A DNA stretch of 64,000 nt from Thalassospira sp. MCCC 1A01148 (GTDB taxonomy: Bacteria > Pseudomonadota > Alphaproteobacteria > Rhodospirillales > Thalassospiraceae), in NCBI RefSeq assembly GCF_001613795.1, contig NZ_LPVZ01000013.1, positions 1 to 64,000 of the forward strand, written 5' to 3'. Shown here piece after piece: positions 33,709-36,379 of this stretch (its first letter is position 1; each line of letters begins with the position of its first letter). The translations under genes were made by a program, and so were the position numbers. Under the pieces are notes generated by a model. That model had not been told where the DNA came from. It saw only the letters and a program-made list of their open reading frames with translations, and made no database searches.

Positions 33709-35013
33709 GTGAAAGACGTCGTCAAAATCGGTGTGGCAGGCCTGGGTACGGTCGGTGCCGGAACCGTTAAACTGCTGAGTGAACATCGCGACCTTCTGAC
33801 CGACCGTTCGGGTCGCCAGATCGTCGTCACAGCGGTATCGGCGCGTGATCGAACTCGGGACCGTGGTTTTTCGACCGAAGGTCTGACCTGGTACGACGAT
33901 GCCCGTGATCTTGCCGCGGACAAGGATATCGACATTCTTGTCGAGCTGATTGGTGGATCGGATGGCATTGCCTATGACACCTGCAAGGCGGCCCTTGAAA
34001 ACGGCAAGCATGTTGTGACCGCCAACAAGGCGCTGATCGCACTTAAGGGCGCGGAACTGGCCCAGGTTGCCGATGCCAACAATGTCACCATCGCCTATGA
34101 GGCGGCGGTTGCCGGTGGGATACCGGTGGTCAAGGCGCTGCGTGAAGGTCTGGCAGGTAACGAAATTTCGCGTGTGACCGGTATTCTGAACGGCACGTGC
34201 AACTTTATCCTGACCACCATGCGCGAGCAGGGGCGCGACTTTGCCGATGTTCTGGCAGAGGCACAGAAACTTGGCTATGCCGAAGCCGATCCGACCTTTG
34301 ATGTCGATGGTATTGATGCCGCGCACAAGCTTGCGATCCTGGCAAGCCTTGCCTTTGGCGTCGAGGTGGACTTTGACGCAGTCGCGGTTGAAGGCATTCG
34401 CAGTGTTTCAGCCCTTGATATCCAGCTTGCCGAAGAACTTGGTTATCGTATCAAGCTGCTTGGCATTGCCAAACAGACCGCCGAAGGAATTGAACAGCGC
34501 GTGTCCCCGGTCATGGTGGATCGTGCGACCCAGATTTCCAAGGTCGAAGGCGTGTTTAACGCGGTTGCCCTTGAAGGCGACTATGTCGGGCCGGTGGTGC
34601 TTCAGGGCCGTGGGGCGGGTGAACGCCCGACCGCATCAGCAGTGGTCGCTGATATCGTTGATATCGCCGCCGGCCGTGCCGCACCCGTCTTTGGCGTGCC
34701 GGCAGATCGCCTGAAGAAAAACGTGCGTGCGTCGCTCGAAAAGCATATTGGCGCCTATTACCTGCGTCTGATGGTATGGGATCGCCCGGGTGTCATGGCC
34801 GAGGTTACCGCAACCCTTGCCAAGCACGGGGTGTCGATGGCGTCCATGATTCAGCATGGCCGGGCCGAAACCGAAGGCGGCGTTGTGCCTGTGGTGATCG
34901 TGGCTCACGAAACGACTGAGTCCGCCATGTCGGGTGCGGTGAATGATATTGCAGCTTTTGAAAGCAATTCACAGCCGCCGGTGCTGATGCGGATTGAAAG
35001 CTTCGCATCTTAA
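33709..35013 (+). CDS. hom: Homoserine dehydrogenase
   Basis: Reduces aspartate semialdehyde to homoserine for threonine and methionine synthesis. It has 434 aa with the NAD loop KIGVAGLGTVGAGTVKLL, the catalytic GILNGTCNFIL and EADPTFDVDGIDAAHKLAI. A C-terminal ACT domain (about 350-434, YYLRLMVWDRPGVMAEVT) probably binds threonine for feedback control. The start is GTG at 33709, with AAGGAG 5 nt upstream. A structured element begins 11 nt after the stop. Confidence 0.97.
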   Translation: MKDVVKIGVAGLGTVGAGTVKLLSEHRDLLTDRSGRQIVVTAVSARDRTRDRGFSTEGLTWYDDARDLAADKDIDILVELIGGSDGIAYDTCKAALENGKHVVTANKALIALKGAELAQVADANNVTIAYEAAVAGGIPVVKALREGLAGNEISRVTGILNGTCNFILTTMREQGRDFADVLAEAQKLGYAEADPTFDVDGIDAAHKLAILASLAFGVEVDFDAVAVEGIRSVSALDIQLAEELGYRIKLLGIAKQTAEGIEQRVSPVMVDRATQISKVEGVFNAVALEGDYVGPVVLQGRGAGERPTASAVVADIVDIAAGRAAPVFGVPADRLKKNVRASLEKHIGAYYLRLMVWDRPGVMAEVTATLAKHGVSMASMIQHGRAETEGGVVPVVIVAHETTESAMSGAVNDIAAFESNSQPPVLMRIESFAS

Positions 35014-35023
35014 CAAAATGAAC

Positions 35024-35290
35024 AGGGTCAGGACCTGAGCAATATGACAGAATTGGTCGATCAGATTTGTGCGGATACGCGGAGCAAAAACGCAGGAAGA
35101 TCCATATCTTTCAAGTTTTTGCGACAAAATAGCCCGTGCAAATCTGATCGATCCGAAGGACAGTTGAGAAACTTGCGAACTTTGACGTCAAACGTCTTGA
35201 CCGGGATTGCGACCCGCTCTTCAACGTTTTTCTTAAATTTCACAAGTTTCTCAACGGCCAATTCTATTATATTGCTCAGGTCCTGACCCT
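35024..35290 (+). repeat. 267-nt terminal-inverted-repeat element folding as a three-way junction
   Basis: A perfect 22-bp inverted repeat bounds it (35024-35045, starting AGGGTCAGGACCTGAG, and 35269-35290). Pairing continues inward to 35056/35258, with one G-U and one C-A in 33 positions. Inside are two arms. Arm 1 is 35057-35074 with 35134-35151 (18 pairs, two G-U); it carries an inner hairpin of GCAAAAAC/GTTTTTGC plus GGAAGAT/ATCTTTC with loop CCAT. Arm 2 is 35163-35175 with 35243-35255 (13 perfect pairs), continuing through smaller helices to CGGG/CCCG at 35202-35216. The dinucleotide AC flanks both ends, a possible 2-bp target duplication. No protein-coding frame is credible. Confidence 0.85.
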
Positions 35291-35292
35291 AC

Positions 35293-35322
35293 GCGCCCCT
35301 CATCTGTCATGATGCGGGGCGC
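35293..35322 (+). terminator. Probable hom terminator displaced by the element
   Basis: GCGCCCC pairs with GGGGCGC, with an inner TCAT/ATGA, followed by TGTTGTAT. It starts 2 nt beyond the element. If the element is an insertion, this hairpin would originally have lain about 12 nt after hom. Confidence 0.55.
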
Positions 35323-35419
35323 TGTTGTATAGTTCGGGCATAAAACCGAGCGTAAAAATAAAAAGACAACAATGAGATGGGGCCCCCAGACCCCACATCA
35401 GCAATACGAGGAAGAAGAT

Positions 35420-36379
35420 ATGGATCGAAATCTTGCGCTTGAAACGGTTCGCGTGACCGAGGCGGCAGCACTTGCGTGCTCTGGCCTGATGGGACGCGGC
35501 GACGAAAAGGCAGCCGATCAGGCCGCCGTGGACGCCATGCGCAATGCGCTCAACAGCATGGACATCAAAGGCACGGTCGTGATTGGCGAAGGCGAACGCG
35601 ACGAAGCCCCGATGCTGTTTATCGGCGAAGAAGTTGGCTCCGGCGAAGGCCCGGAAATCGACATTGCGCTTGATCCGCTTGAAGGGACGACCATTTGTGC
35701 GACCGGTGGTCCGAACTCTTTGGCTGTTGTTGCCATGGCCGAAAAGGGTGGCTTCCTGAACGCGCCGGACACCTATATGGACAAGATTGCCGTTGGTGGT
35801 GGTCTTCCCGATGATGTTGTTGATCTTGACGCCAGCCCGGCCGAAAACCTTAAAAGCCTTGCCAAAGCCAAGGGCTGCGATGTTGCTGATCTGGTTGTTT
35901 GCATCCTTGATCGCCCGCGCCATCAGGACATCATTGCCAAGACCCGCGAAGCAGGTGCGCGCATCATGCTGATCGGGGATGGCGATGTTGCCGGTGTGAT
36001 CGCAACTTCGCAGAAAACGTCGGGCATTGATCTTTACATGGGGACAGGTGGCGCACCGGAAGGTGTTCTGGCAGCAGCAGCCCTTCGTTGCATCGGGGGT
36101 CAGTTCCAGGGCCGCCTTGTTTTCCGCAACGATGATGAAATCGCACGCGCGAAAAAATGGGGCATCGCAGACCTGACCCGCAAATATAAACTGGGCGAAC
36201 TTGCCAGCGGCAACGTCATGTTTGCGGCAACCGGTGTGACCGATGGCGCGATGCTGCGTGGCGTGCGCCGCTTTGCCAATGGTGCGGAGACCGAAAGCAT
36301 CGTGATGCGCTCCCAGTCGGGTACCGTGCGCTATGTCCGCGCCGTGCACGATTTCAGCCGCAAGATCTGGTACAAATAA
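35420..36379 (+). CDS. glpX: Class II fructose-1,6-bisphosphatase
   Basis: Gluconeogenic enzyme hydrolysing fructose 1,6-bisphosphate. It has 319 aa. Characteristic metal- and substrate-binding segments are VIGEGERDEAPMLFIGEEVG, ALDPLEGTTICATGG and YMGTGGAPEGVLAAAAL. I chose the ATG at 35420, with GAGGAAGA upstream; the extra residues from 35372 are non-homologous. It sits after hom, and in related alphaproteobacteria recJ follows, but here 5 kb of other genes intervene. Confidence 0.96.
   Translation: MDRNLALETVRVTEAAALACSGLMGRGDEKAADQAAVDAMRNALNSMDIKGTVVIGEGERDEAPMLFIGEEVGSGEGPEIDIALDPLEGTTICATGGPNSLAVVAMAEKGGFLNAPDTYMDKIAVGGGLPDDVVDLDASPAENLKSLAKAKGCDVADLVVCILDRPRHQDIIAKTREAGARIMLIGDGDVAGVIATSQKTSGIDLYMGTGGAPEGVLAAAALRCIGGQFQGRLVFRNDDEIARAKKWGIADLTRKYKLGELASGNVMFAATGVTDGAMLRGVRRFANGAETESIVMRSQSGTVRYVRAVHDFSRKIWYK

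Follow-up and report, generated by a model that had tools for sequence, protein, structure and literature searches.

A transposase-less mobile element with IS427/IS711-type ends and a two-armed, covarying fold in Thalassospira and other Alphaproteobacteria

The 267 bp between hom and glpX of Thalassospira sp. MCCC 1A01148 (35024-35290 of the window, by which we mean the whole 64,000-nucleotide stretch analysed) constitute a mobile element without a transposase and not a locus-specific RNA. The evidence is strong that it may be classed as a mobile MITE of IS427/IS711-type IS5 elements, strong that its interior is structured, and good that this interior is under selection; as judged from sequence comparison, an IS427/IS711-type MITE with a selected structure is a highly probable reading. 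The interior is composed of two related, oppositely oriented hairpin arms with compensatory changes, set on a long terminal stem, a design that the first-pass annotation of this DNA did not recognise. The interpretation offered in that annotation is, overall, partly supported.

The element and its site between hom and glpX

The two ends of the element (Table 1) had been described as perfect 22-bp inverted repeats, and a sequence check confirms that the 22 nt at 35024-35045 are the exact reverse complement of those at 35269-35290; with mismatches allowed, the inverted repeat reaches 42 nt at 88%. AC is indeed present on both sides, as first reported, but it does not hold as a duplication, since the family duplicates TA. 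At hom-glpX the target duplication is not clean (CA on the left, TA on the right) and a few flank bases are missing. This copy is also among the more divergent ones, with 56 positions differing from its nearest relative in a set of 133 copies that was drawn from listed good matches and hence favours well-kept copies.

Table 1. Features of the element and its immediate surroundings (positions in the window)
Feature	Position	Strand	Remarks
Whole element	35024..35290	no strand	267 bp; 265 in most copies
Left terminal inverted repeat (5′ side of terminal stem)	35024..35056	no strand	Same outer bp as the left end of IS427/IS711-type IS5-family elements (12-13 bp here; ~19 bp in many copies)
Arm 1 hairpin	35057..35151	+	Folding and tandem U-G/G-U wobble refer to + strand
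Mini hairpin between arms	35152..35160	no strand	UCC-GAA-GGA
Arm 2 hairpin	35161..35257	-	Like arm 1 in structure when read on - strand
Right terminal inverted repeat (3′ side of terminal stem)	35258..35290	no strand
Left target dinucleotide position	35023..35024		CA here; TA in most copies
Right target dinucleotide TA	35290..35291
Hairpin, likely original hom terminator	35293..35322	+	After hom in empty-site relatives

In the 14 relatives displayed with a close empty-site match, a hairpin equivalent to 35293-35322 is located directly 3′ of hom (11 further hom-glpX loci of relatives were unmatched by the search string in this comparison). Because the hairpin directly follows hom in these empty-site relatives, the element sits between hom and its likely terminator, in agreement with what had been proposed. 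Likewise, no transposase is encoded within the element, as first stated. A coding reading of the small minus-strand frame (66-80 aa), which is open in some copies, was rejected, given a stop inside 8 of the 14 copies with an ATGGC start; the start itself is absent from 2 of the 16 full-length copies. An Rfam search of positions 34500-35900 returned five matches, all far below the gathering score, nine loci with relatives gave no Rfam match up to E = 1, and no description of the element was found in the open-licence literature searched.

Copies and distribution

The same Thalassospira genome (4.31 Mb, 24 contigs) harbours 16 full-length copies of 263-267 bp, including that at hom-glpX, which lie in both orientations and are accompanied by partial and divergent copies; because several contigs end inside copies, the assembly breaks at them. 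Of the 28 relatives examined at hom-glpX, 27 leave no room for the element, the matching stretches of hom and glpX being separated by 5-202 bp; the remaining one (G007) yielded no hom-glpX match among the matches listed. The multiple copies and the empty site bear out the mobile MITE-like unit that the first-pass annotation suggested, and they differ from the pattern it had set against mobility, namely a single copy conserved at hom-glpX. A fixed locus-specific RNA or attenuator of hom-glpX, which would fit the strong fold described below, is thereby refuted for practical purposes, given the relatives without the element at this site and the many copies elsewhere.

Within the genus Thalassospira, the element was detected in 26 of 29 genomes by BLAST and in 27 of 29 by a covariance model. 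Beyond the genus, copies were identified in Nitratireductor, Brucella daejeonensis, Mesorhizobium, Phyllobacterium, Hoeflea, Henriciella, and further relatives, mostly 264-268 bp long with two at 278-280 bp; most of them adopt the same fold, and for three (L265, L271, L275) the best fold on the strand tried was a different one. Matches were present in at least 16 of 385 genomes of a class sample and at least 10 of 299 genomes of a phylum sample, Thalassospira included in both, the copy counts from these searches being lower bounds because only 5-6 candidates per genome were scored. One phylum-sample genome outside the class contained a full-length match (G745:C1:1407-1674, E 1.6e-25). The search of phages gave no match to the element, and two plasmid records matched it, both from Nitratireductor.

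Target sites and empty sites

Of 98 sites, 51 have TA at both ends of the element, and the surrounding context is YTAR: position -2 is Y at 81 sites and position +2 is R at 77, although a few sites may have been counted twice. As a check less biased than the 133-copy set, the joined flanks of 17 sites of one Thalassospira genome (G003) were sought in three other genomes. Among the resulting 51 site-by-genome tests, 11 were filled (two pieces ~265 bp apart) and 37 gave a single spanning match without the full element, the remaining three comprising two weak or partial matches and one without a match. The junction was a clean single TA at 6 of the 15 sites whose junctions were displayed, and small local changes were seen at the rest.

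Several individual sites deserve separate mention. At the site of L161, where G003 carries a full copy and G012 nothing, G016 and G017 (L411, L409) contain a 19-nt palindrome resembling two joined element ends, a stub that may be a deletion footprint; among 30 fetched loci, an end-like string in the middle occurred only in L411, at this same site. The spanning match at the site of L151 shows a 21-nt flank duplication. The copy at the site of L148 (G003:C1:490822-491086; also L393) is common to G003, G017, G013, and G002, is exactly absent in G016, and the site is unfilled in G012, which suggests either precise loss or allele replacement by recombination.

Regarding gene orientation, the 98 codon-scored sites comprised 43 tandem, 20 divergent, and 7 convergent intervals, along with 18 inside or at the edge of a gene, 8 without a neighbour, and 2 short ones. 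These 98 sites display no clear orientation preference compared with the window baseline (75% tandem, 16% divergent, and 9% convergent intergenic bases).

Insertion sequences sharing the ends

The end sequence AGGGTCAGGACCTNTTAATNT was found in at least 120 stretches of species genomes, and the 80 loci listed carry names that we take to be those of Alphaproteobacteria, save one labelled only Proteobacteria. In four of these 80 loci (from Aminobacter, a Rhodobacteraceae MAG, Novosphingobium, and a Proteobacteria MAG), a matching end with no more than 6 mismatches in 21 positions lies at a distance of 828-846 bp; each of the four is flanked by TA at either end and contains two long frames. The three IS pieces scanned (two from Aminobacter, one from Novosphingobium) match DDE_Tnp_1, DUF4096, and NCBIfam transpos_IS5_3 (NF033580). 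Within Thalassospira, 848-855 bp elements of the IS427/IS711 type with similar ends were identified in G002 and G003 (TA on both sides) and in G026 (TA and TG), and G009 contains one IS-type end. In G026 the IS has open frames, but neither BLAST nor the covariance model found a MITE copy there.

The IS427/IS711-type copies found here share with the element the terminal repeat AGGGTCAGGAC and TA flanks, whereas the element lacks a transposase and has an interior that, by eye, is unlike that of the IS. Both MITE ends resemble the left IS end GGACCTATTAAT, and at the opposite IS end the sequence is similar to GGACTCATTAAT. Some MITE copies (L006, L010, L011, L017) and some IS copies (L367, L370) have ends of a second type, AGGCTCAG, as if matched MITE/IS end subtypes coexisted. 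IS711 of Brucella is described as an 842-bp element with 20-bp imperfect repeats, two overlapping ORFs, and duplication of the TA of YTAR (PMC2266754), and IS427-group elements of Paracoccus as being ~830-865 bp long, with mostly 2-bp repeats and two overlapping ORFs (PMC3281130). In view of the shared ends, the TA flanks, and IS711 as described, on which description the likeness to IS711 rests, the MITE follows the IS427/IS711 pattern.

The transposase gene with matching ends for which the first-pass annotation proposed to search thus exists in other genomes, in the form of the IS427/IS711-type elements, and was not found in the source genome. There, 78 end-like matches (at most 1 mismatch) included no facing pair 700-1000 bp apart; a look beside the unpaired terminal-repeat matches revealed truncated forms and stubs, but neither a transposase nor a second end; and a single related transposase was seen, which has 33% identity and shows no ends of this kind. 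An IS5-family transposase of the IS427/IS711 type would bind the shared outer ends and move the element in trans, and a related IS, now missing from the source genome, may have supplied it. For IS427-type transposases, the element becomes a clear candidate non-autonomous partner.

Other transposase families account less well for these ends. The link to Y1/RAYT transposases that was first suggested is not upheld, as the matching ends found belong to IS5-family DDE elements of the IS427/IS711 type, and a Y1 transposase would not be needed to explain the MITE. REP/BIME sequences with Y1 RAYT are not known to have DDE-type terminal repeats or a target duplication; membership in that group is not supported, given the TA duplication and the IS5-type ends. 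IS630 also duplicates TA, and this duplication would suit an IS630/Tc1-type MITE derived from an IS630-type source with AGGGTCAGGACC ends. Such an origin is nevertheless very improbable, because the ends match IS5-family elements instead and the DDE_3 model (PF13358) finds nothing in the source genome, with something found in 9 of the 29 genus genomes.

The two-armed fold

The predicted RNA fold of the 267 nt has an energy of -137.6 kcal/mol, compared with -65.1 +/- 4.6 for 200 shuffles (z = -15.9), so that the fold, Y-shaped overall, does not arise by chance. In a consensus compared by eye, arm 1 (plus strand) and arm 2 (minus strand) share one layout, with stem, wobbles, internal loop, 7-8 bp, small loop, and inner hairpin in this order, and their loop sequences are related. 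The interior resembles a single hairpin module of ~96 nt that is present twice, once in each orientation. The length of ~265 bp is near-constant across the class.

Covariation is extensive. In the 16 full-length copies, RNAalifold proposes 95 pairs, 47 of which have changes on both sides, and 95.7% of cells pair, whereas shuffles reach 85.0% and slid controls no more than 45.4%. A wider set of 27 copies from 24 loci (26 copies from beyond the genus; from 52 matches, the strand with the better score was retained for each) shows covariation at 85 of the 95 pairs and pairing in 94.9% of cells, compared with 52.8 pairs (highest 60) and 70.3% of cells in 200 shuffles of the same set, although this result leans towards the model because the alignment was fitted to it. 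Since matching mutations keep the folding across many Alphaproteobacteria, the folded shape itself seems to matter, which suggests that the interior is not mere junk.

The tandem wobble of arm 1 is highly conserved, U-G and G-U each being present in 125 of 133 copies and both in 119. At the same places of arm 2, the plus strand reads C-A in 88 of 133 copies and A-C in 72, together in 61, which correspond to wobbles on the minus strand. The conserved wobbles support an RNA role. Counted on the other side are the less complete wobbles of arm 2 and the weakness of a polarity test on newly arisen wobbles (22 on the proper and 11 on the improper strand, p = 0.08; arm 1 against arm 2, Fisher p = 0.03).

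Change of copies after insertion

Copies occupying the same site in at least two genomes form 27 groups, and when each group is represented by one pair, divergence is 3.6% in the element and 6.3% in the 60-nt flanks; the element is slower than its flanks in 23 groups and faster in 4 (sign p = 3e-4). Across all 44 pairs, the corresponding values are 3.6% for the element, 6.6-6.8% for the near flanks, and 8.7% further out. Gap columns number 1 in 11649 for the element and 50 in 5255 for the flanks, the latter figure being raised by end gaps of the fixed 60-nt pieces. Furthermore, changes in place amount to 0.0905 per position per group at family-variable positions and 0.0176 at conserved ones, and they are inversely correlated with family conservation (Spearman -0.42, p = 1e-12). 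Neutral decay of dead copies would not tie change in place to family variability, whereas gene conversion between copies might in part mimic this link.

Among the large classes of positions, the unpaired ones of arm 1 have the highest change in place (0.10, compared with 0.03 for arm 1 paired), and the terminal 12+12 bp, at 0.037 per position per group, do not stand out as slow; by these values, the strongest protection falls neither on the loops taken together nor on the ends. Close pairs differ in their stems mostly by one-sided changes, which level off near 5 while two-sided ones rise with divergence; some pairs treated as non-orthologous in this comparison (e.g., L150/L178) are probably orthologs. 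This is the pattern expected if pairing is maintained by compensation in steps. A concerted change of both sides during transposition is not supported, the close pairs being mostly one-sided.

Possible role of the arms

How the arms function is a matter of lower confidence. Because the two modules stand in opposite orientation, either strand, when transcribed from a neighbouring gene, would present its 5′ arm in the same sense. On our preferred reading, held tentatively and at somewhat below even chances, the arms would work as folded RNA when transcription of the flanking gene reads through them, e.g., as a processing, stability, or protein-binding site. Along the same line, the mobile element could be a class-wide carrier of a bidirectional RNA module, each copy being kept by host purifying selection as a putative cis-acting RNA part, possibly a portable mRNA processing or protein-binding site; we put this forward, both its parts jointly, as a possibility that is more doubtful than assured.

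Two other explanations leave the MITE as it is and account differently for its interior. The arms could matter as DNA, in the form of hairpins extruded from single-stranded DNA and recognised by the transposase or a host factor, so that the structure would serve mobility only. The symmetry of the element, whose halves share one architecture, and its near-constant length across the class would be natural on these terms; however, constraint is seen on copies that stay put, the conserved tandem wobble would be G-T in DNA and weaken a cruciform, and one-armed forms of 161 bp with perfect ends and TA flanks, found in Mesorhizobium and a Rhodobacterales MAG, indicate that two arms may not be needed, unless an arm was lost after insertion. 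We regard a role confined to DNA as unlikely, if still to be reckoned with. Less probable again, and indeed improbable, is that pairing is maintained by a mutational process without selection, such as template switching in hairpins (quasipalindrome correction). One of two very similar copies in G008 does have its inner arm-1 hairpin made into a perfect palindrome, but such correction would erase the tandem wobble that is complete in most copies of arm 1, the stem changes of close pairs accumulate from one-sided to two-sided with divergence, and the overall rate lies below that of the flanks. The G008 copies in question (L128-L131, at contig ends whose pairing is inferred) are near-identical, with a paired terminal-stem change as a further difference, and the palindrome in one of them looks like template-switch correction.

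MITEs are usually seen as decaying passengers. Here, copies that stay in place change more slowly than their flanks, have most of their changes at family-variable positions, and share a class-wide covarying fold, and it becomes testable whether a bacterial MITE family is a portable RNA regulatory part, the role that we tentatively favour for the arms.

Comparison with known repeats and degenerate forms

RIME and the Caulobacter repeats are structured intergenic repeats of Alphaproteobacteria, and the Caulobacter intergenic repeats contain a conserved GANTC site. This site occurs in only 30 of the 133 element copies, which sets the element apart from the Caulobacter repeats, and RIME is like the element, by description alone, in class, intergenic position, and structure. 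Both are mentioned as intergenic repeats of Alphaproteobacteria in two reports (PMC2573895, PMC1273637). Bru-RS1 and Bru-RS2 of Brucella, palindromic intergenic repeats linked with IS711 (PMC2266754, PMC2267715), are given as 103-105 bp (PMC2267715), and the element, at 265-267 bp, is set apart from them by its length. MITEPye1 of Paracoccus yeei, which has IS1182-type ends and is thought to be mobilised in trans by the IS (PMC11578231), resembles the element, as described, in small size, terminal inverted repeats, direct repeats, lack of a transposase, and long stem-loops; it belongs to another IS family, and the element differs in its two related arms, its class-wide near-constant length, and its measured covariation.

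Shortened forms of the element were also encountered. L052:609-781 (G000:C20:793608-793780) is a deletion derivative of 173 bp with both ends kept, and L058 is one of ~55 bp in which the left end is retained together with the final 7 bases at the right. Solo stubs such as TAGGGTCAGGACCTA, with the second end not nearby, occur at L053, L055, L057, and L061 and could be deletion footprints. Finally, three very divergent relatives (L132:3987-4253, L133:4113-4299, and L134:1800-1985) have other end sequences and a similar arm motif, roughly AAGGAAA ... CTACG.TCAAG ... TGACGC, two of the three with one full arm only.
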